A stretch of 64,000 nt of DNA from Burkholderia sp. GAS332 (lineage in GTDB: Bacteria; Pseudomonadota; Gammaproteobacteria; Burkholderiales; Burkholderiaceae). Shown piece after piece: positions 5,470 to 47,325 of this stretch. Below the pieces are notes generated by a model, which saw only the letters and a program-made list of their open reading frames with translations, had not been told where the DNA came from and did no database searches. Every line of letters starts with the position of its first letter. Within the stretch, counting starts at the first letter, position 1. The DNA is taken from the NCBI GenBank assembly GCA_900142905.1, contig FSRV01000001.1, positions 2,666,001-2,730,000 of the forward strand, written 5' to 3'. Both the position numbers and the translations under genes were made by a program.

Positions 5470-8400
5470 GCTCTCGTATCCGTTCGGCGGTTCCACGGCA
5501 AGCCGTCGGACCACCTGGCAATCCTGAAACGCAAGCGGTCGAGGTAAAGGTAGATCACCGGCGTCGTGTACAACGTGAAGACCTGACTCACGATCAAACC
5601 TCCCATCACGGTGACGCCCAGTGGTTGGCGCAGCGACGCGCCCTGCCCGATCCCTATCGCCAACGGCACCGCGCCGAGCACGGCCGCGGCGGTGGTCATC
5701 ATGATCGGCCGCAGACGCACCACGGCGGCTTCATGAATGGCCCGCCTCGCGTCCATCCCTTCATTGCGTTGCAACTGGATGGCGACATCCACCATCATGA
5801 TCCCGTTTTTCTTGACGATGCCGATCAGCAAAATGATGCCGATCAGCGCGATCACGGAAAACGGCGTGCCGAAGACGAGCAAGGCGAGCGTCGCGCCAAT
5901 CCCGGCCGACGGCAAGGTGGACAGGATCGTGAGCGGGTGGATCGTGTTCTCGTACAGTACGCCCAGCACGATATAAACGACGACCAGGGCGGCCAGGATC
6001 AGCAACGGCACGGTGCCCATTGACTGCGCATAGGCCTGCGCCGCGCCGGCGAATGCGCCGTGGATCGAGGCCGGCATGTTGATGTCCTGCTCGGCTTTCT
6101 TGATGATGTCGCCCGCCTGGCTGAGGGAGCCGCCGCCTGGCAGGTTGAACGAGATGGTCCCCGCCACGAGGCCGCTCTGATGGTTGACCTGCGTTGCGGT
6201 GTGGCTGTTGGCATAGGTCAGCATCGTTCGAAGCGGCACCATCGTTTCGGCCGCGGTGCTGTCCGCGCTGCCGCTGGAATTGCCGCCCTTGCTATTGGAA
6301 ATGCTGTTGGTGAGCTGATTGGCTTCGGCATTGGCGTTCAGCGCGTTCGTGTTGCTGCTGCTACCTTGCGAGGTGCTCACGGCCACCGCCTGCTGGGGCG
6401 CGGTGACGGTGCCGCCCGGCATCTGCGTCTGCTGCGTGCCGTTCGCGTTGCCTGCGGCCGTGCTCAGGAAGATCTGGTCGAGGGTTTGCGGATACTGCCA
6501 GTACTGCGGCGCCACCTCCATCACCACGAAGTATTGATTGAGCGCGTTGTAGATCGTCGAAACAGTGCGCTGGCCGAATGCGTCGTAGAGCACGTTGTCG
6601 ATCTGGTTCGGCTGGAAGCCGTAACGCGTCGCGGTAGCACGGCTGATATTGAGGTAGGTTTGCAGACCGTTTTGCTGCAGATCCGAGTTGACGTCGAGCA
6701 GTTGCCCGCGGTACTTGCCGAGTTCGGTCATGAGCTTGGGCACCCACTTGAACAACGCATCGGCATCGTCGCTGGTCAATGTGTATTGATACTCGGCCGC
6801 GGCCTGCCGTCCGCCGATCTGCAGATCCTGCTGGGCCTGCAGGAAGAGCCGCGCGCCCGATACCGCATTCAGCTTCGGCCGCAGGCGGTTGACCACCTGG
6901 GTGGCCGATAGATGACGCTGGGCCAATGGCTTGAGTTCGATAAAGACGTTGGCGGTGTTGAGCGCGCGGCCTCCCGTGAAGCCCGCGACCGACGCCACTG
7001 CGGGGTCCTGCTGGACGATCGACTGCAACTGCGCGAGCTTCTTTTCCATCGCCGGAAACGAGATGCTTTGATCGGCGATGATCTGCCCGATCAGGATGCC
7101 GGTGTCCTGCTCCGGGAAAAAGGTGGCCGGCAACAACCTGAACAGGAACACGTTGAGCACGAGCAGCGCGACCAACATGAGGCCGATCAGTAACGAGTGG
7201 TCGAGCACGGCGTCCAGCGAGTGCGAGTAGCCATTCTTGAAACGCTCGAACTGCGCTTCGAACCAGCTCGCCCAGCGTGCCTGCGAGTGCTTCGCATGCT
7301 GATGGCTCAGCACATACGCGCACATGGTCGGCGTAATCGTCAAAGAGATCAGCAGCGAGAACAGAATCGCGATGGACAGCGTCACCGCGAATTCATGAAA
7401 CAGCAAGCCGACAATGCCCGGCATCAACAGGATCGGCAAGAACACTGCGATCAGCGACAGGCTCATCGAGATGACCGTGAAACCCACCTCGGCGCTGCCG
7501 CGCAGTGCGGCCTCCTTGGGATCGAGCCCGGCTTCGAGGTGGCGCACGATGTTCTCCAGCACCACCACCGCATCGTCGACCACGAAGCCGGTGCCGATCG
7601 TCAACGCCATCAGCGAGAGGTTGTCGATGCTGTAGCCGAGCAGGTACATCGGCCCGAACGTGCCGATGATCGACAGCGGCAATGCGACCGCGGGGATCAG
7701 CGTCGCACGCGGCGAAAGCAGGAACACGAAGACCACGCCGACCACCAGCAGCACGGCGATGAAGAGCGTGCGTTCGGTATCGCCCACCGAGGCCCGGACC
7801 GATTCGGAGCGGTCGATCGCCACGTTGACGCGGATGGCGCTCGGCAACGCCGCCTCGATCGAAGGCAGGCGTGCCTGAATCTGCGCGACAGTCTTGACGA
7901 CATTGCTGCCCGGCATCGGATAGACGATCACGAGAACGGACGACTTGCTGTTGTACAGCCCCGCGTTGCGGATGTTTTCGTTCGAGTCGATCACCTGGGC
8001 GACATCGCGCAGCAGCACCGGCGCACCGTCGCGGTACGCGATGATGACGTCACGGTAAGGCGCGGCCTTGCTGATCTGGTCGTTGGACAGGATCTCGTAG
8101 CGCTGGTCGCCCTGGTCGATGTGGCCCTTCGCGCTGTCGGCGTTCGCGGCGCCGATCGCCGCGCGCACGTCTTCGAGCCCGATGCCGTAGCTGCTGAGCT
8201 TGCCCGGCTGCAACTCGACCCGCACCGAGGGCAACGCGCCGCCGCCCAGCGTGATTTGCCCGACGCCATCGACCTGCGAGAGTTGCTGCTGGATCACCGA
8301 ATCGGCGGAATCGTAGAGCTGCGCTTTGGTGAGGGTGTCCGACGTCAATGCGAGCACCATGATCGGCGCCCCCGCCGGGTTGTACTGGCGGTAGGTCGGG

Positions 8401-38255: not shown

Positions 38256-39707
38256 TTACTGCCCGAAGCGCGCGTAGATATCCGGCCGCTTCTTACGCAG
38301 GATGAGACCGATCACGACGCCGAAGAGCGCCACCGCGAATACGATCCAGGGGAAAGACTTGACGATCGGGCTATCGGAGCCGCTGAGCGCATCGAGATTG
38401 CGCACCAGAATCACACCGATATACAGCAGGCCGATGCCACCAACGAGGGGCGCGACAAACGAGTGCCATACGCGCGTGTCCTTGCGCGTCTTGCGGAAGA
38501 ATGCGATGACGGAAAAGCTCGTCACCGCTTGCAGCATCACGATACCGATCGTGCCGAGCGCCGAGCTCCAGCTGAATACGATGTTGAACGCATCGCTGCC
38601 TGCCGCGATGAAGAGCCCGAGCAGGACGCACACGGAGAGCGTCTGCAGATAGCTCGCCACATACGGCGAACGGTATTTTTCGTGCACCCGAGTGAGCGCT
38701 TGCGGCAGGATGCCCTCCAGGCTCAGCGCGTGGATATAGCGCACCAGCGTGTTATGGAAAGACAACAGACTCGCGAAGATACTGCTGAGCAACAGGAAGC
38801 TCATTACGGTCGTGACCGCACCACCCAGATACTTGCCGGATTGAATGAACCAGAAATCGCCCGGCTGCTTTGTCGCCACCGCGACCACGTCGTTCAATCC
38901 GTACGCGCAAACAATCGTCCACGTGACGAACGCGAAGAACACGAGAATCAGCATCACCGAGACATACGTCGCGCGGGGCACCGTCACCTTCGGGTCCCGG
39001 CATTCCTTGCCGTAAATCGCCGTCGCTTCGAAGCCGATAAACGACGCAAAGGCGAACATCACCGCAATGCCGAGGTGGCCGCTGAACACATGTTCCGGCG
39101 TGAACGGCGCGAGCGTGAGGCCGTTCGGGCCACCGCCATGCACGACGATCGCTATCGCGAGCAGCAGCAGAATGCCCAGTTCAAGACACATCAGCACGCC
39201 GAGCAGCCGGCTATTCAGATCGATACCGCGGATGCCGGTGAATTGCACCACCGCCACACAGAGCAGCGAATAGCCGTACCAGGGCATGGCCGTGTGCAGG
39301 AGCGGAGAAAGAATCACCGTGCAGAAAAATCCAAACAGCCCATACAGCGCGATCTGGATGAACGTGTACGACATCAGCGCGACGAGTGCGCCGGCCATGC
39401 CCAACGGCCGTCCGAGTCCGGCGGTGATGTACGCGTAAAAGGCGCCGGCGCGCACCACATGCCGGCTCATCGAGGCGAAGCCCACGCTGAAAATCAGCAG
39501 CACGACACCGGCAATCACGAACGCGCCCGGAATGCCCGCGCCATTACCCAGGCTGATCGCAGGCGGCACCGCACCGAGCATGCCGGTAAGGGGCGCTGCC
39601 GCGGAAATCACGAGGAACACGATTTGCCACAAGCCCAGCGTATTGCCCTTCAGTTCCACAGGGTTCTCCGCGTCGATCAGACGGGTCGGAGAGTAGGGTT
39701 CATTCAT
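38256..39707 (-). CDS. APC-superfamily amine/amino-acid permease
   Basis: 483 residues with about 12 helices. The first helix has the APC signature ISAAAPLTGMLGAVP, and SFIGFEATAIYGKECRDPKVTVPRA is the conserved helix-6 region of the family. Ribosome site AGAGG before ATG 39707. The gene lies next to an AraC regulator and a copper amine oxidase, so it probably imports the amine substrate. A 29-bp element with two TTGGCGCA repeats sits 139-167 bases upstream and reads toward this gene, the same motif as before the amine oxidase. Confidence 0.88.
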   Translation of the reverse strand: MNEPYSPTRLIDAENPVELKGNTLGLWQIVFLVISAAAPLTGMLGAVPPAISLGNGAGIPGAFVIAGVVLLIFSVGFASMSRHVVRAGAFYAYITAGLGRPLGMAGALVALMSYTFIQIALYGLFGFFCTVILSPLLHTAMPWYGYSLLCVAVVQFTGIRGIDLNSRLLGVLMCLELGILLLLAIAIVVHGGGPNGLTLAPFTPEHVFSGHLGIAVMFAFASFIGFEATAIYGKECRDPKVTVPRATYVSVMLILVFFAFVTWTIVCAYGLNDVVAVATKQPGDFWFIQSGKYLGGAVTTVMSFLLLSSIFASLLSFHNTLVRYIHALSLEGILPQALTRVHEKYRSPYVASYLQTLSVCVLLGLFIAAGSDAFNIVFSWSSALGTIGIVMLQAVTSFSVIAFFRKTRKDTRVWHSFVAPLVGGIGLLYIGVILVRNLDALSGSDSPIVKSFPWIVFAVALFGVVIGLILRKKRPDIYARFGQ

Positions 39708-39845
39708 CGCTGCCTCTATTTTGTTGGCTAGTCTGGAACTCGCCTAAACCCGGGTAATGCTGGTGAAGGCGCTCGGTTGACCGACGTTCGATGTCTCGGT
39801 GTGAGCGCATGGTAGGTAGCTAAAAAATAAAGCGACTTCGCGAAC

Positions 39846-39874
39846 TGCGCCAAATTTTCGATAATTTGCGCCAA
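39846..39874 (-). promoter_or_regulatory. Direct-repeat operator upstream of the permease
   Basis: On the minus strand: TTGGCGCA, thirteen bases that include TTATCG, then TTGGCGCA again, repeat start to start 21 bases. Half-sites on one helical face and 21-bp spacing are the usual form for AraC-family binding. The same element occurs at 41056-41084. Confidence 0.7.
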
Positions 39875-40000
39875 TGCTCGCGAGCGTGTCAGACATTGCG
39901 GTTCGCAGCGAATAGTTAGGAAACGAAAGTTTTTCTTTTCGTGTGACGATTGACGAATGTGGCCTCGCTTACCTTCAGAATGAAAGTATTGGCCACGCCA

Positions 40001-41005
40001 TCATCCTTTATTGTTTTTCCAGTTGCGCGTGGCGCGCCACAGTACGGTTGCGTCGGCATAACCTACGGCCCGGGCGATCGCCGCATTGGTGAGCCCGTCG
40101 TGTTCAAGTAGTCCTTCCACACTGCGCTGCCGCTCTTCCCGCACGATCTGCCGCACGGAAGTCCCCGCCTCGGTTAGGTGCCGTTGCAACGAGCGATGCG
40201 AGAGACCGAGATCTTTCGCGATGTCGGCGACGATCAGCTTTTCATGCGCGAGCCGCCGCGTCACCAGATCGCGCACCTGCTCGACGATGCTGTGGGGCAC
40301 GGCGTCACGCGCAATCAGATCGGTGGCATGGCGCTCCATCATGCGCGCCATTTGCGTGTCGGCGCTCTTGAGCGGCGCATCGAGATCCAGTGGACGCAGA
40401 ATGACGCCATTGAAAGGCTGCTGAAAGCGCACCGGTGCGCGGAAAGTGCGCGCATACGGTTTGAGATCGGCGGGCGCAGCATGTTCGAAATGCAGTTCGA
40501 CGGGATTCCACGCCGCGCCGCGCACCAGCCGGATCATATTGCACATCGTCGACAGGCTGTATTCCGCATCTTGCCGGCGCGGCCAGATTTGCGGATTGGC
40601 GATCTGATAGGTCCAGACCGGCCATTCGCCGTCGCGCAGCAACTCGCAGGCCGTGGCGTTCTGCCACGACGCGAGGGCGAGCGTGAACTTGCGCATCGCC
40701 GCGTTCAAGGTCGGCGACGATAGAAACACGAGACCCGCCGGCCCCAGCTCCGTCAATTGCAATTCGCTGCCGAGCCGCAAGCCAAGCGACGGTTCGCCGA
40801 GTACTTCGGCCGCGCGCTCGAATGCCGCCACATAACGTGTGAGCGGCAGGATTTCGTACGGATTCGACAGGAGCTTGCGGCTCATGCCGAACTCCTCCAG
40901 CAGTGCGTCGCAATGGGCGCCTGATGCATCGAGTGCGCGCACAACCGGTCCCATGACCGCGGCGCGGATCATCGGGAAACTGCCGTTGAGCGTGACTTTT
41001 TTCAT
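40001..41005 (-). CDS. AraC-family regulator of the amine block
   Basis: 334 residues. N-terminal arabinose-binding-type domain (LGPAGLVFLSSPTLNAAM); C-terminal helix-turn-helix pair (VADIAKDLGLSHRSLQRHL and TNAAIARAVGYADATVLWRATRNW). The C-terminus ends about ten residues earlier than usual for the family, just after the last recognition region. Ribosome site GGAGA. It lies between the permease (same strand) and the amine oxidase (opposite strand); both have the paired TTGGCGCA element upstream, so this protein is the likely activator of both. Confidence 0.9.
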   Translation of the reverse strand: MKKVTLNGSFPMIRAAVMGPVVRALDASGAHCDALLEEFGMSRKLLSNPYEILPLTRYVAAFERAAEVLGEPSLGLRLGSELQLTELGPAGLVFLSSPTLNAAMRKFTLALASWQNATACELLRDGEWPVWTYQIANPQIWPRRQDAEYSLSTMCNMIRLVRGAAWNPVELHFEHAAPADLKPYARTFRAPVRFQQPFNGVILRPLDLDAPLKSADTQMARMMERHATDLIARDAVPHSIVEQVRDLVTRRLAHEKLIVADIAKDLGLSHRSLQRHLTEAGTSVRQIVREERQRSVEGLLEHDGLTNAAIARAVGYADATVLWRATRNWKNNKG

Positions 41006-41055
41006 GCTGAGCGTCTCCTCTCAAGTCTTCGCTGATGTGCTGCGTGTTATTCCTC

Positions 41056-41084
41056 TTGGCGCACTTTATCGTTCATTTGGCGCG
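41056..41084 (+). promoter_or_regulatory. Direct-repeat operator upstream of the amine oxidase
   Basis: TTGGCGCA (41056-41063), thirteen bases including TTATCG, then TTGGCGC (41077-41083), 21 bases repeat to repeat. It reads toward the amine oxidase, whose ATG is 121 bases on, and is 51 bases upstream of the AraC start on the other strand, so it could also autoregulate. Confidence 0.7.
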
Positions 41085-41204
41085 ATAAGCAAGCGCGAAA
41101 ATAATATTGAGTTCCTACGATTTGCCATCGACTCAGCGTTCGCCGCGCTTCACTCCGCCGCGCGGGAATGTGGTCCGGTCCAGCACACTCCTTACGGGAA
41201 CCTT

Positions 41205-43190
41205 ATGAACACGAATGCCACGAAAGCCGCTCACGCGCCCGTTCATCCGCTCGATCCGCTGAGTTCGGACGAAATGCAGCTTGCCTGCGATCTCGTGAAG
41301 GCCGCCGAAAACCTCGACGGGCACGTACGCTTTCCGATGGTCGAATTGCGCGAGCCACCGAAGGCTGAAGTCGTCGCATTCAAGACCGGCGAATATTTTC
41401 CGCGCACGGCGTTTGTTCTGGCAATCGATCGCACGAATGGGACGACGATTGAATACAACGTGGACCTGAGAGAGAAAAGAGTCGCCTCGCGCAACGAGCT
41501 GCCATTCGATCAGGCGCCTTACGGCCAGCCGCCGATCATGATCGAAGATTTCATGAACGCCGAGCAGATCGTCAAGAACGACGCCGCATGGCGCGTTGCC
41601 ATACTGAAGCGCGGCTTGACCGAGAAGGATCTGGAGAACGTGCAGGTGGATCCGTTTTCCGCCGGCTGCTTCGACCGCGAGAACGAGAACGGCCGGCGCC
41701 TCGTCCGCTGCGTGAGCTACTACCGTGAGACCGTGACCGATAACGGCTACGCGCATCCGATCGAGGGCGTGGTCGCGGTGGTCGATCTGCTCGAGAAGAG
41801 AGTGATCGAACTGGTGGACGACGGCCGCATCATTCCGATTCCGCGTGCGAAGCACAACTACGACACGCCGAGCCTCGGCGAGCCGCGCAGCACGCTCAAG
41901 CCGCTGTCGATCAGCCAACCCGAGGGCCCGAGCTTCAAGATCGACGGCTGGCACGTGAGCTGGCAGAACTGGAACTTCCGGGTCGGCTTCACGCCGCGCG
42001 AAGGGCTGGTGCTACATCAACTGTCGTGGGACGACGGCAAGAATGCGCGGCCGATCATCTACCGTGCGAGCGTGACGGAGATGTGCGTGCCCTACTCCGA
42101 CCCGAGCACGAACCACTACTGGAAGAGCGCCTTCGATGCCGGCGAGTACGGCCTCGGCAAACTGGCGAATCAACTTGAACTCGGTTGCGATTGCCTCGGC
42201 ACGATCCGCTATTTCGACATTCCGTCCGCCGACGATTTCGGCAATGCGTTCCTGATGAAGAACGCCGTGTGCATGCACGAAGAGGATTACGGCACCCTGT
42301 GGAAGCACTACGAGTTTCGCACCGGTGTTTTCGAAATGCGCCGCTCGCGACGCCTCGTGATCTCCTTCTTCGCGACGGTCGGCAACTACGACTACGGCTT
42401 CTACTGGTACCTGTATCAGGACGGCACGATTCAACTCGAATGCAAGCTGACCGGCATCGTACAAACGTCGGCGGTAGCGGACGGCGACACGTATCCGTGG
42501 GGTGGCATGATCACCGAGAACCTCGGCGGCCCCACCCACCAGCACTTTTTCAATGCACGGATGCACATGATGGTGGACGGTGAGCGCAACACGGTGACCG
42601 AACACGAATTCGTGCCGCGTCCGATGGGCGAAACGAATCCGTACGGGAATGTCTTCGACACCACGAAGCACGTGTTCAGGACCGAAAGCGAAGCCGCGCG
42701 TCTTGCGAACGGCCGCACGGGACGTTACTGGAAGGTGACCAACCCGAACGTGAAGAACGCTGTCGGTGCGAATCCTGGCTACAAGCTGATTGTGAACGAC
42801 TCGCCACTGATGCTGGCCGACGAGCGCTCGAAGGTCCGCCAGCGCGGCGGCTTTGCCACGCGTCACGTGTGGGTCACACCGTTCGACCCGGCGGAGCGCT
42901 ACGCGAGTGGCGACTATCCGAATCAGCACGCGGGCGGTGACGGCTTGCCGCGCTACATCGAGGCGAACCGCAACATCGAGAACGAAGACATTGTCTTGTG
43001 GCACAGCTTCGGTCACACCCACGTGTGCAAACCCGAGGACTTCCCGGTGATGCCGGTGGAATACGCCGGCTTCATGCTCAAGCCGAACAACTTCTTCTCC
43101 GCCAACCCGACGATGGACTTACCGTCCGAGCGTGATCAGAACAGCGTTGAAGACGGCAAGTCCGCGGATCATGGCTGCTGCAAACGCTGA
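41205..43190 (+). CDS. Copper amine oxidase (TPQ-dependent primary amine oxidase)
   Basis: 661 residues from ATG 41205. The tyrosine that becomes topaquinone is in VGNYDYG; the catalytic-base Asp is in AFDAGEYGLG; the copper ligands are in THQHFFNARM (His-x-His) and GHTHVCKPEDFPVMP. It oxidises a primary amine such as tyramine, phenethylamine or histamine to the aldehyde, giving ammonia and hydrogen peroxide. No signal peptide is visible, as in the cytoplasmic Arthrobacter-type enzymes and unlike periplasmic E. coli TynA. Operators upstream and a downstream aldehyde dehydrogenase support an import-oxidise-dehydrogenate pathway. Confidence 0.94.
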   Translation: MNTNATKAAHAPVHPLDPLSSDEMQLACDLVKAAENLDGHVRFPMVELREPPKAEVVAFKTGEYFPRTAFVLAIDRTNGTTIEYNVDLREKRVASRNELPFDQAPYGQPPIMIEDFMNAEQIVKNDAAWRVAILKRGLTEKDLENVQVDPFSAGCFDRENENGRRLVRCVSYYRETVTDNGYAHPIEGVVAVVDLLEKRVIELVDDGRIIPIPRAKHNYDTPSLGEPRSTLKPLSISQPEGPSFKIDGWHVSWQNWNFRVGFTPREGLVLHQLSWDDGKNARPIIYRASVTEMCVPYSDPSTNHYWKSAFDAGEYGLGKLANQLELGCDCLGTIRYFDIPSADDFGNAFLMKNAVCMHEEDYGTLWKHYEFRTGVFEMRRSRRLVISFFATVGNYDYGFYWYLYQDGTIQLECKLTGIVQTSAVADGDTYPWGGMITENLGGPTHQHFFNARMHMMVDGERNTVTEHEFVPRPMGETNPYGNVFDTTKHVFRTESEAARLANGRTGRYWKVTNPNVKNAVGANPGYKLIVNDSPLMLADERSKVRQRGGFATRHVWVTPFDPAERYASGDYPNQHAGGDGLPRYIEANRNIENEDIVLWHSFGHTHVCKPEDFPVMPVEYAGFMLKPNNFFSANPTMDLPSERDQNSVEDGKSADHGCCKR

Positions 43191-44487
43191 TCCGACGCCG
43201 CGCGACGCAGGGTCTGCGGCTGCATCCGTAGCCGACGTGGCACGCGTACATCCCACGATTGCGGCCGGCCCGGCATGCGGGCTGATTGCGAGCGTGGGTA
43301 ATGCGGCGCATGGGCTGAATGCGAGCGTAGGTGACACGGCACGTGGGCTGATCGCGAGTGTGGGCGGTGCGGCACGCGCGCTGATTGCGAGCATGAGTCG
43401 GACGGCCTGTGTGCTGACTACGAGCATGAGCGGCTCGGCCCGTGTGTTGATTGCGAGCGTAGGTGGCGCGGCCTGCGTGCTGCTCGTGAGCGGCGCTGCG
43501 ACGCTGGTGACGCAAGCTGGCCTCGGCCAGCGAGCCAGCGCGCTGTGGATGAGCGCGTTGGCGTTGGCAACGATGACGACCGTGCCGTTGTTAATGTCTC
43601 GCCTGTCGAGGCGGCACATCACACTGGCGACGGCTGTGACGCTGATCGCAACGATGAGTGCGATGGGCGTTGTGCCTGCGTACGTGGGCGGGTTCGAGCA
43701 TGGCGTCGCGATAGCCGCGTTGGCTGTTGCGCTGGGTAGTGTATTGCTGTTTTACGGGTGGCACCTTGCTAGCGAGACGGCCTCGCCACCTGCAACGGCA
43801 TCATCACCTGAACACTCCAATCGAAATAAATACGCAAACCAGAACACGGACGAGTCGACTAAGACCAAGCACGCGACTGGCGCGGCGGCGCTGCTCGCAT
43901 TGCTTGCGGGCTTATCGAGTGGAAGTCTCGCGCGTTTCCAGTTCTATGCGATTTGCGGCATGCGTGGCGCGCAGCCGATGTGGGAGATAGCGCTTTCTCT
44001 GGGTGCTGTTTGCGCGTTGGCGTTGATTGCCGACCGATCCGGCAACGACAACCGGATGTTGATTGTGCTGTACGTGCTACGAGCGCTGTTGATTGGAGCG
44101 CTCGCGGCCGTAGACAGTCCGATGCTTGCCCTGCTCACGGCAAAGATGTTTCTGGTTCTCGACTGCCTGACGATTCCATCGCTCATGAAACTGTTGGGCA
44201 AATCGCGCAGCGCAATGCGCGTGGGCTGCCCTGGCGCGGCACACCACATTGGGATGGTATTGGGAGCGACGATATCGACGACGCCCTACTTTTTCGGCGA
44301 CGGATTCATGGTTCTGTATGTGCTGAGCGCGATTGCGAATCTGATATGTGCTGGCACGTTAGCAACCAATTGGTTCGAGAAAAGACCATTCCCAAAGCAC
44401 TTAAACCATCACCACCGTCATGCGGACCTTTCCGACGAGCACGAAGTGCGAGGCGGGAAGTATGACTGCCTTGTCACTCAGGGATGA
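43171..44487 (+). CDS. Membrane protein, MFS-like, with 33-bp in-frame tandem repeats
   Basis: About 438 residues from ATG 43171, which overlaps the oxidase stop; a GTG at 43132 is also possible. The first part (residues about 35-110) is seven 11-residue repeats of the form G-L-I-A-S-V-G-x-A-A-R, then hydrophobic helices (MTTVPLLMSRLSRRHITLATAV, the MFS helix 2-3 loop pattern) and a second helical bundle (LLTAKMFLVLDCLTIPSLMKLLG). Roughly eight to ten helices in all, so a reduced or degraded MFS carrier. Function unknown; perhaps an exporter or importer for the amine pathway by position. Confidence 0.55.
   Translation: MAAANADPTPRDAGSAAASVADVARVHPTIAAGPACGLIASVGNAAHGLNASVGDTARGLIASVGGAARALIASMSRTACVLTTSMSGSARVLIASVGGAACVLLVSGAATLVTQAGLGQRASALWMSALALATMTTVPLLMSRLSRRHITLATAVTLIATMSAMGVVPAYVGGFEHGVAIAALAVALGSVLLFYGWHLASETASPPATASSPEHSNRNKYANQNTDESTKTKHATGAAALLALLAGLSSGSLARFQFYAICGMRGAQPMWEIALSLGAVCALALIADRSGNDNRMLIVLYVLRALLIGALAAVDSPMLALLTAKMFLVLDCLTIPSLMKLLGKSRSAMRVGCPGAAHHIGMVLGATISTTPYFFGDGFMVLYVLSAIANLICAGTLATNWFEKRPFPKHLNHHHRHADLSDEHEVRGGKYDCLVTQG
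43272..43502. repeat. 33-bp minisatellite, seven units, coding
   Basis: The core CTGATTGCGAGC or a variant starts at 43282, 43315, 43348, 43381, 43414, 43447 and 43480, exactly 33 bases apart. Units diverge from one another, the first and third being closest to the consensus. The period is a multiple of three and keeps the reading frame. Confidence 0.93.
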
Positions 44488-44700
44488 ACGAGCGAGGACA
44501 CAGATTCCAGATGTTCCACTACCGTGGCTGCGCGGGGGACCCGCTTAGCAGGGGGCTCTAGCCGCTTTCTTTGCTTATCTTTCTTTGCGGCGGCAAAGAA
44601 AGTAAGTGCCGCCCCGCACAGGGGCAACGCTAATAGACCACTAAGAACTCAAGGAAAGGCCAACGCCGCAGGCAAACAGCAAAACAGCAAATCAGGTCCC
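44455..44700 (+). repeat. Intergenic repeat family, copy C (intact)
   Basis: Continuous version of the family: GGGAAGTATGACTGCCTTG, CAGATTCCAGATG, GGGACCCGCTTAGCAGGGG, hairpin 44579-44602, GTGCCGCCCCGCACAGGGGC, AACGCTAATAGACC, AAGGAAAGGCCAACGCCG. It overlaps the last about 30 bases of the preceding frame and reads toward the aldehyde dehydrogenase. It is the reference that proves the IS insertion in copy B. Confidence 0.88.
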
Positions 44701-44754
44701 AAAAGCGACAAACGAATACCACCGCCAATCTCACCCCAACGGAGACAAAGCAAA

Positions 44755-46236
44755 ATGACCGAACAAAAAAACCGAGCAGCGCAGCTACCCCAAACCATGT
44801 TCATCAACGGCGAAAGAACCTCCAGCGCCGCAGGCAAAACCTTCCCCATCTACAACCCAGCGACAGGAGAAGAACTAGCCCAACTCCCAGACGCATCAGA
44901 AACCGACATCGACCACGCGGTCAAAACCTCAAGAGCAGCTTTCGAGTCAGACGCCTGGCGCAGGATGCCGCCCGCCACCCGCGAACGCCTGTTGCTAAAA
45001 CTAGCCGACCTGGTAGAACACCACACCGACGAACTAGCCACACTAGAAACCCTGAACCAGGGAAAACTAATAGCATTCTCAAAGATGCTGGAGGTCTCGG
45101 GCAGCGTCCAATGGCTGCGCTACATGGCTGGTTGGGCCACCAAGATTGAGGGCACGACTTTCGACCTATCGATCCCCTTCCCACCGGGCACCCGCTACAA
45201 CGCCTCAACAAAACGCGTCCCAGCGGGCGTGGTCGCGGCAATTGTGCCGTGGAATTTCCCGTTACTGATGGCGGTCTGGAAAATCGCCCCGGCACTCGCA
45301 TGTGGCTGCACCGTCGTGCTAAAACCGGCGGAAGAAACGCCCCTAACGGCGATCCGCCTGGCCGAACTGGCACACGAAGCCGGCTTCCCAGCGGGCGTAT
45401 TCAACGTGGTCACCGGCCGTGGCGAGACCGCCGGCGCAGCGCTGGTCAAGCATCCCTTGGTGAACAAAGTCACCTTCACGGGATCAACCGAAGTGGGCCG
45501 CATCATCGGCCGCCAATGTGCTGACGATCTGAAGCGGGCCTCGCTAGAACTAGGTGGCAAGAGCCCCGTAATCGTGCTGGAAGATTGCGACCCGAAGAAA
45601 GCAATCGAAGGCGCAGCCGGCGCGATTTTCTTCAACCACGGCCAGGTCTGCACCGCAGGTTCACGCCTGTACGTCGCACGATCGATTTACGACGAAGTGG
45701 TGCAAGGCATCGCCGCAGTGGCCGATGGAATCGCATTGGGCTCCGGTTTCGATGCCGCAACGCAAATGGGACCGATGGTTTCCGCGCGGCACCGCGACAA
45801 GATCATGGGAATGATCGCGCAAGGCCGCCAGGAAGGCGGTGAGATCCTGTCGCGCGATGCGGCCGTCGACACGGACGGCTTTTTTGTCCGCCCGACGGTC
45901 ATTGCCAATCGCGCCTGCAAGCCGCTTTCGGTCGTCAGGGAAGAGGTATTCGGACCGGTGCTGGTGGCAATGCCCTATGACGATATCGACGAGGTGCTGA
46001 CTCAGGCCAACGCATCCGAATATGGCCTCGGCGCGAGCGTCTGGACGAATCAACTCGATAAGGCGTTGAGGCTGGTTGACGGCATCGAAGCGGGCACCGT
46101 TTGGGTCAACACCCATAACATGGTCGACCCCGCCATGCCGTTTGGAGGCTTCAAGGCGTCGGGGATCGGCCGCGAGCACGGCAAAGCCATTGTGGATGCT
46201 TATACCGAGAGCAAGTCGGTCTGCATCGCTTATTGA
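44755..46236 (+). CDS. Aldehyde dehydrogenase, phenylacetaldehyde-dehydrogenase-like
   Basis: 493 residues from ATG 44755 (GGAGA upstream); the open frame before it is repeat DNA. Catalytic Cys in NHGQVCTAGSRLYV, general-base Glu in LELGGKSP, NAD loop FTGSTEVGR. Closest in style to FeaB/StyD enzymes that turn phenylacetaldehyde to phenylacetate, which fits a neighbouring amine oxidase, but substrate is not proven. The first 600 bases use many CTA, TCA and AGA/GGA codons unlike the rest of the gene and its neighbours, a possible sign of mosaic origin. Confidence 0.88.
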   Translation: MTEQKNRAAQLPQTMFINGERTSSAAGKTFPIYNPATGEELAQLPDASETDIDHAVKTSRAAFESDAWRRMPPATRERLLLKLADLVEHHTDELATLETLNQGKLIAFSKMLEVSGSVQWLRYMAGWATKIEGTTFDLSIPFPPGTRYNASTKRVPAGVVAAIVPWNFPLLMAVWKIAPALACGCTVVLKPAEETPLTAIRLAELAHEAGFPAGVFNVVTGRGETAGAALVKHPLVNKVTFTGSTEVGRIIGRQCADDLKRASLELGGKSPVIVLEDCDPKKAIEGAAGAIFFNHGQVCTAGSRLYVARSIYDEVVQGIAAVADGIALGSGFDAATQMGPMVSARHRDKIMGMIAQGRQEGGEILSRDAAVDTDGFFVRPTVIANRACKPLSVVREEVFGPVLVAMPYDDIDEVLTQANASEYGLGASVWTNQLDKALRLVDGIEAGTVWVNTHNMVDPAMPFGGFKASGIGREHGKAIVDAYTESKSVCIAY

Positions 46237-46377: not shown

Positions 46378-47325
46378 TTGAAACGCAAAATGCCCGCGCT
46401 AAACGCGCTAAAAGCCTTCGAAGTGGCTGGCCGCACGGGCAGCTTCACCCGCGCAGCGGAGCTGCTGAACGTAACGCAAAGCGCGGTCAGCCGGCAAGTC
46501 CGGCAACTCGAAGCCCAACTCGGCGAGACGTTACTCCAGCGTCACCATCACCACCTCGAACTCTCCGCCGCCGGCCGCATCCTCCTGCAAGCACTGCAAC
46601 AATCATTCGACCGGATCGAACTCACGGTCCGCAGCCTGCAGGAGAAAACCCACCGCAACCGCCTGCGTATCAACGCGCCACCCACCTTCACGAGCCGCTG
46701 GCTGATGCCGCGTCTCGGACGTCTGCGTGACGCGCATCCGCATCTCGAACTCAGCCTGTCGACCCGCGTCGACGACAATCTCGCCGAATCGGGCGTGCTC
46801 GACTGCGCCATCCGCTTCGGCAACGGCGAGTGGGAAGGCGTCGACAACCGCTTGCTGATGAATGAACGGCACATTGCCGTCTGCGCCCCCGCGTTGCTCG
46901 CGCGCGAGGCAGGCCGCGCGGCCATCGATCTGAATCAGTTCACGCTGCTGCACGTGCTCGCCAGCGCCGATCAGCGCTATCTGACCTGGCAGCACTGGTT
47001 AAAGGCCGCCGGCATCGAAAACGTCGACACTCGCGGTGGCTACGAATTCGATCTGCTCGATCATGCGATCCAGGCCGCTATCGACGGGCTTGGCGTAACC
47101 ATCGCCGATCGTCACATGATCGGGCGCGAACTCGCGGAGGGCCAACTCGTGCAGGTGCTGAACGTGCACGTCGACGGACATCAGTCGTATTGGCTCGTTA
47201 CGCGTGCGGAACAGGACGAGCTGCCGCACGTCGCGCTGTTCCGCGACTGGCTGCAGCAGGAGATCTGGTTGACCGAGCGCGCGATCGATTCGTCGGAGTC
47301 GGCGCAGTTGGGCGAAGCGGATTGA
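46378..47325 (+). CDS. LysR-family regulator, GcvA-like
   Basis: 315 residues if started at the TTG at 46378; the ATG at 46390 gives 311. The N-terminus (MPALNALKAFEVAGRTGSFTRAAELL) and VTQSAVSRQVRQLE are GcvA/AmpR type, a group that often controls one adjacent operon. Effector domain with TFTSRWLMPRLGRLRDAHP. It converges with the GMC oxidoreductase gene, 11 bases apart, so it may control the sugar/alcohol operon to its right or the ALDH to its left; no site was found. Confidence 0.88.
   Translation: MKRKMPALNALKAFEVAGRTGSFTRAAELLNVTQSAVSRQVRQLEAQLGETLLQRHHHHLELSAAGRILLQALQQSFDRIELTVRSLQEKTHRNRLRINAPPTFTSRWLMPRLGRLRDAHPHLELSLSTRVDDNLAESGVLDCAIRFGNGEWEGVDNRLLMNERHIAVCAPALLAREAGRAAIDLNQFTLLHVLASADQRYLTWQHWLKAAGIENVDTRGGYEFDLLDHAIQAAIDGLGVTIADRHMIGRELAEGQLVQVLNVHVDGHQSYWLVTRAEQDELPHVALFRDWLQQEIWLTERAIDSSESAQLGEAD

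Follow-up and report, generated by a model that had tools for sequence, protein, structure and literature searches.

Two closely matching repeat elements flank the gene of an AraC/XylS-family regulator, one upstream of an amine or amino acid permease gene and the other upstream of a copper amine oxidase gene. We predict that they are operators of one local activator, encoded between them, and put the probability of this reading at about 0.9. It rests on sequence comparison: the sites are conserved, occur together with the regulator, are lost or relocated along with their target genes, and have an AraC/XylS-type geometry. All of this supports the earlier note's proposal that these are paired operators of the 40001-41005 regulator.

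Gene content of the amine locus

The window, a stretch of 64,000 nucleotides, covers positions 2666001-2730000 of contig C1 of the genome (G000; 10,416,547 bases in three contigs). Eight of its proteins were scanned, among them the permease, the copper amine oxidase, a porin and the aldehyde dehydrogenase. The first putative target gene (38256..39707, minus strand, ATG at 39707) encodes an APC-type permease for amine or amino acid uptake, matching PF00324 and PF13520 above cut-off. The second (41205..43190, plus strand) encodes a phenylethylamine-oxidase-like copper amine oxidase that passes the primary amine oxidase model PRK11504 with 961.3 bits against a cut-off of 651, and the nearest solved chains are phenylethylamine oxidases. 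Judged by eye, its N-terminus is unlike an export signal, and a permease would be useful for an oxidase that apparently is not exported. A StyD-like phenylacetaldehyde dehydrogenase gene lies at 44524..46236 (plus strand; NF045735, 931.5 bits, cut-off 850) and likely provides the next pathway step. Its annotated start is probably too early, the family match running from residue 88 on. Between oxidase and dehydrogenase, a reading frame at 43132-44487 overlaps the end of the oxidase gene, has no Pfam match and contains a 33-bp tandem repeat (43279-43473; 5.9 copies, 72% matches). A LysR-type protein is encoded at 46378-47322.

The regulator (40001..41005, minus strand, 334 aa) combines the N-terminal domain PF12625 with HTH_18, a C-terminal double helix-turn-helix domain (PF12833, 41.7 bits, cut-off 33.6). 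Its top NCBIfam match is QhpR (NF049968), at 221.8 bits under the equivalog cut-off of 250, and no Qhp enzyme was found among the eight scanned proteins. Identification as FeaR (NF007243) was rejected at 24 bits versus a cut-off of 199, with a match spanning only residues 240-319. VirS was the best of three solved structures (2.7e-13). AraC proteins usually carry a C-terminal tail beyond the last recognition helix. This regulator ends shortly past that helix (RNWKNNKG), and the tail is either absent or replaced in those aligned Burkholderiaceae homologs that are unbroken; a W-T-G-x-x-P-S tail is present in the distant homolog P0068, and P0059 has one like it.

Sequence and rarity of the two elements

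Both elements follow the pattern TTGGCGCA-N13-TTGGCGC and, when the sequence was re-read, stood where the earlier note had placed them, each directed at its own gene. The permease-side candidate operator occupies 39874-39847 on the minus strand (TTGGCGCAAATTATCGAAAATTTGGCGC) and the oxidase-side candidate 41056-41083 on the plus strand (TTGGCGCACTTTATCGTTCATTTGGCGC). The claimed shared length of 29 bp holds for 28 bases in register; the 29th differs, being A on the permease side and G on the oxidase side. The repeat period of 21, the common placement of TTATCG and the distances to the ATG of 139 bases (permease) and 121 bases (oxidase), counted from the 28-base ends, were all reproduced. Between the oxidase-side element and the start codon of araC there are 50 bases. 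Ortholog comparison reduced the initial pattern to a 17-base core, TGGCGC-N4-TATCG-N6-TGGCGC, and the refined module of each promoter reads TGGCGC-N4-TATCG-N6-TGGCGC-N32-TACnAT.

The earlier note had held that chance could hardly account for the two copies and had proposed a genome-wide motif search. That search bears the argument out: the only matches to TTGGCGCA-N13-TTGGCGC without mismatch in the genome are the two reported places. The core has three perfect places in the genome, compared with 0.004 expected under a base-composition model, and the third precedes the permease gene in another copy of the cluster, which lies on contig C3. Looser matches to the motif are noise. With up to two mismatches, the first pattern matched 97 times versus 73 times in the reversed control, and for this reason its matches with one or two mismatches were taken as chance. 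With up to three mismatches the core gave 266 matches versus 142 in the control, and looser matches in the window numbered 7 versus 7.2 in shuffles.

A composite search, in which the core is combined with TACnAT, was more discriminating. In the own genome (up to three mismatches, 32 bases) it returned the two window sites and a decayed C3 site only, with 0 in the control, and a larger regulon in this genome was rejected on that basis. The C3 permease site, which has a spacing of 33 bases, was recovered by the core search and by a search with variable spacing. Chance likeness of the elements was ruled out by the pattern and core searches above, by this search and by the composite search of 398 genomes described below, each with controls. 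No further composite site was present in the window at up to five core mismatches, so there is none before the aldehyde dehydrogenase gene. The lack of a site at this gene of the pathway counts against the operator reading.

Conservation of the promoters

A regulator-based scan of genome contigs yielded 40 loci, all from Paraburkholderia, two of them listed as Burkholderia sp., with regulators 76-98% identical over the best segment. The nearest named regulator, from Paraburkholderia polaris, is 98% identical. The oxidase-side core is unbroken in all 40 loci and the permease-side core in 38; the exceptions are L035, where the contig ends, and L024, where the permease promoter was to all appearance lost through deletion while the permease frame is still open (483 codons). 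All 17 columns of the oxidase-side core are invariant (680/680 base comparisons identical), as are the five fixed columns of TACnAT in the oxidase promoter (200/200), and identity in the flanks is 58.5% upstream and 59.2% downstream. The permease promoter shows 97.2% identity in the core and 92.0% in TACnAT (184/200 base comparisons), both with the two site-less loci counted, and 50.5% and 66.2% in the flanks. Fourfold-type third positions of araC, examined in 10 loci, have an identity of 0.52-0.56 in five distant and 0.69-0.87 in five near loci.

Conservation also bears on a different explanation, namely that the repeats are promoter parts, with the TTGGCG of the second repeat as a -35 box followed 17 bases later by AATAAT, and that the likeness of the two elements reflects coincidence or promoter duplication. 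A consensus scan indeed picks TTGGCG-17-AATAAT at 41077-41105, with two promoter-like sites in 1.7 kb versus 0.7 in shuffles. However, the same scan gives no such -35/-10 pair at the permease site, and in the orthologs shown AATAAT varies whereas TACGAT is constant. The first TGGCGC and TATCG, both as conserved as the second TGGCGC, would be left unexplained. We therefore consider promoter parts a very improbable explanation and continue with the operator reading.

Distribution of site and regulator

Operator and TACnAT were searched together in 398 genomes of the family at spacings of 25 to 45 bases (21 spacings). There were 48 places in 25 genomes, and none in the reversed control. The spacing was 32 bases in 47 of them; the single place with 33 bases is the C3 permease copy. 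Perfect cores without the TACnAT box occurred at 20 more places in 19 other genomes, with one place in the reversed control, and these places count against the operator reading; the surroundings were viewed for one of them (G343). Several of these cores are near-identical across genomes (TGGCGCGCGTTATCGG..) and perhaps belong to one conserved coding stretch.

Among 144 genomes of the genus, 57 had a match (32 bases, up to two mismatches). One site per strand was found in 53 of the 57, and 52 were paired on one contig. The pair is split over two contigs in G842, G213 has two pairs, G839 has one site, and G809 has two sites on two contigs. The single sites of G808 and G820, each with two mismatches, look like chance.

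At E <= 1e-50 the regulator was present in 27 of the 398 family genomes: 25 in the genus, with at least 76% identity, and two in other genera, G343 (69%) and G292 (64%). These 25 genus genomes, each with a regulator at least 76% identical, are exactly the ones that carry the composite; it is absent from the other 373. Fisher's test gives p of about 1e-37 for the association when all 27 genomes with the regulator are counted and kinship is ignored. No regulator was found at 1e-40 in 80 non-genus genomes, a set without a positive control. Among 369 class genomes, three matched at 1e-30, i.e., the own genome and two with only 24% and 31% identity. A protein search at 1e-50 gave 141 relatives; among the 120 matches listed, names from Trinickia, Burkholderia and Caballeronia appear at 60-71%.

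The match between site and regulator also weighs on the idea that another regulator uses the sites, such as a different AraC protein or the LysR-type protein encoded at 46378-47322. A loose first search for the regulator turned up 53 candidates in the own genome, and in one locus (L052, see below) the sites persist although araC is broken, which would both fit this idea. It conflicts with the finding that composite sites and 40001-41005-type regulators share the same 25 genomes out of 398, with the position of the sites on either side of the 40001-41005 gene and their AraC/XylS-type geometry, and with the variant sites beside homologous regulators in L084 and L092. Use by a different regulator thus seems highly unlikely, and the 40001-41005 protein is the preferred candidate.

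Promoter layout and direction of control

A likely -10 box follows each operator at 32 bases: TACCAT at 39809..39814 (minus strand) in the permease promoter, at equal distance in orthologs and replaced by TAACAT in some, and TACGAT at 41116..41121 (plus strand) in the oxidase promoter. Each element consists of two directly repeated 15-bp half-sites, and the repeat period is 21 bp. The upstream half-site has both boxes (TGGCGC-N4-TATCG), and the downstream half-site keeps only the first (TGGCGC); its second box is not TATCG and has a consensus near GC.A, a point against the operator reading. The upstream half-site thus looks the stronger one. If transcription is assumed to start 7 bases past the -10 box, the upstream half-site spans -71 to -57 and the downstream one -50 to -36. 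Provided that TACnAT is the -10 box, the downstream half-site adjoins the presumed -35 region. In a class II position, the downstream half-site adjoins or overlaps the -35 region.

This position of the half-sites makes activation the likely mode of control. The direction of control cannot be told from sequence alone, and the 40001-41005 regulator might instead act at these promoters as a repressor relieved by amines. Such a role appears improbable, if less so than the two alternatives above, because a half-site by the presumed -35 region, a poor -35 and a weak downstream half-site make up the layout of AraC/XylS activators in the available excerpts of PMC4514859 and PMC5481539. Activation by the regulator is the reading we retain.

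The closest parallels in geometry are XylS, MekR and MtlR. XylS binds at Pm of the Pseudomonas putida TOL plasmid to TGCA-N6-GGNTA-N6-TGCA-N6-GGNTA, with 15-bp half-sites and a 21-bp period, according to the accessible parts of PMC4514859 and PMC5481539. The elements studied here share the two direct-repeat 15-bp half-sites with boxes A and B and the period. They differ in the boxes themselves, here TGGCGC and TATCG, and box B is not kept downstream. Other differences are the N-terminal domain, here PF12625, the amine genes in place of benzoate genes, and the presence of two promoters that flank the regulator gene. XylS and MekR, according to the same two papers, both have the geometry seen here: 15-bp half-sites, a 21-bp period and a second half-site abutting the -35 region, which for the elements here is a presumed one. 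For MtlR at PmtlE of Pseudomonas fluorescens, PMC4514859 places the upstream half-site at -72 to -58 and the downstream one at -50 to -36, nearly equal to the positions obtained here on the assumed start; the MtlR repeats are AGTGC-N5-AGTAT-N7 with a 22-bp period, and they control mannitol genes. A stronger upstream than downstream half-site is described for MtlR, MelR and RhaS in PMC4514859 and PMC5481539.

Two regulators are comparable in function. QhpR, the regulator of quinohemoprotein amine dehydrogenase genes, is likewise tied to amine catabolism and is the best NCBIfam match, but the regulator studied here falls under the equivalog cut-off; according to PMC5023235, the qhpR gene sits in a qhp cluster. 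No QhpR operator was found in the literature searched, which consisted mostly of papers outside subscription. FeaR of E. coli, as presented in the available portion of PMC4640556, is an AraC-family regulator of tynA/feaB, whose products are likewise a copper amine oxidase and a dehydrogenase of phenylacetaldehyde.

Displaced and decaying sites

The genome G809 appears to be that of locus L024. On its contig C134 the operator of the oxidase side is retained, and there is none on the permease side within three mismatches. On contig C122, a 77%-identical permease gene is preceded by TGGCGCAATATATCTTCTAATTGGCGC-N32-TACTAT, and the regulator was not recognized by eye among the 10 listed ORFs of at least 220 aa in a 12.5 kb stretch around it. 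Because the C122 permease bears the operator and the permease site beside araC in L024 is gone, the site can move with the permease, away from araC. Behind the unlinked operator-bearing permease (L094:1465-6222) there are two ORFs on the same strand, of 465 and 607 aa, which are possibly further targets.

The second porin-permease-araC-oxidase cluster (L009) lies on C3, the smallest contig (G000:C3:99000-112000). Its oxidase gene has shrunk to a 272-codon ORF and its oxidase-side site has two core mismatches and TACGAA, suggesting that this operator decays in step with its gene. The C3 permease is intact, with a perfect core and TACCAT at 33 bases. In L052, from an uncultured Paraburkholderia symbiont (6001-7000), the araC frame is broken and both cores persist, which argues against strict coupling of site and regulator; the permease promoter has a changed -10 box, TGCTAT, which stands at 33 bases. 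The loss of araC in L052 may be recent.

Variant sites of related regulators

L084 is a second regulator of G213, with 65% identity. Its permease-side site has one core mismatch and TACCAT at 32 bases, and a perfect core pointing away from araC has TATTTT at 32 and faces a different reading frame. The exact composite is absent in both genomes with a 64-69% regulator (L091 and L092), which counts against the operator reading. In L091 (69%), a perfect core stands some 118 bases upstream of a gene for tyramine oxidase subunit B and lacks TA at 32; the site beside araC is worn, with three mismatches.

For L092 (64%), none of the nine ORFs listed is a permease or copper oxidase like those in the window. 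Three sites have one or two core mismatches (0.007 expected at up to two): one lies before PaaK, one before a deacetylase-like gene and the last downstream of a gene for an aminotransferase. Of four sites with four mismatches (0.9 expected at up to four), one precedes a gene, an aldehyde dehydrogenase gene; it has a -10-like box and is a selected, weak case. Among the four promoter-type sites of L092, TACTAT or TACTCT stands at 32 bases in two and at 33 in one, and no such box is found before PaaK.

L091 does not keep the strict module, and L084 and L092 keep it only in part. Conservation of the DNA-binding versus the N-terminal part of the regulator is 0.78 versus 0.66 in L091, 0.74 versus 0.59 in L092 and 0.66 versus 0.65 in L084. 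The variant sites favor the view that amine genes may share a slowly drifting operator language. More tentatively, and at slightly below even odds, one AraC subfamily might carry a rigid, portable promoter module, TGGCGC-N4-TATCR-N6-TGGCGC-N32-TACnAT, across amine routes of the Burkholderiaceae. Most members of this subfamily would have a DNA-binding domain that ends soon past the last recognition helix. The routes would be those of the permease and copper amine oxidase in Paraburkholderia, of tyramine oxidase subunit B in L091 (core only) and, in L092, of phenylacetate-CoA ligase and perhaps an aldehyde dehydrogenase.

Proposed mechanism and implications

Most likely, a regulator dimer would fill the weaker downstream half-site in response to an inducer and recruit RNA polymerase. 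Uptake by the permease and oxidative deamination by the copper amine oxidase would then be turned on together. The inducer would most likely be an aromatic amine, such as phenethylamine or tyramine, or the corresponding aldehyde; the enzyme families point to these two amines. We infer that the pathway is likely an aromatic monoamine route to phenylacetate, given the phenylethylamine-type oxidase, the StyD-like gene downstream and the sites of relatives before PaaK and tyramine oxidase genes.

In the literature searched by title and beginning of abstract, mostly outside subscription papers, we found no paper on the site or the regulator. The operator pair is strongly supported; it would represent an ordinary kind of gene control, normal for soil bacteria, with a target sequence not found in print in that literature, and the general understanding of AraC-type regulation is unchanged. 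If the module is indeed portable, it would amount to an undescribed portable amine regulon, not the switch of one locus. The regulator group of Paraburkholderia gains a predicted binding site, a target list and a promoter geometry to the base. Its biology thereby becomes directly testable, with a candidate amine-responsive promoter pair and with relocated and decaying copies that serve as natural tests of the site.
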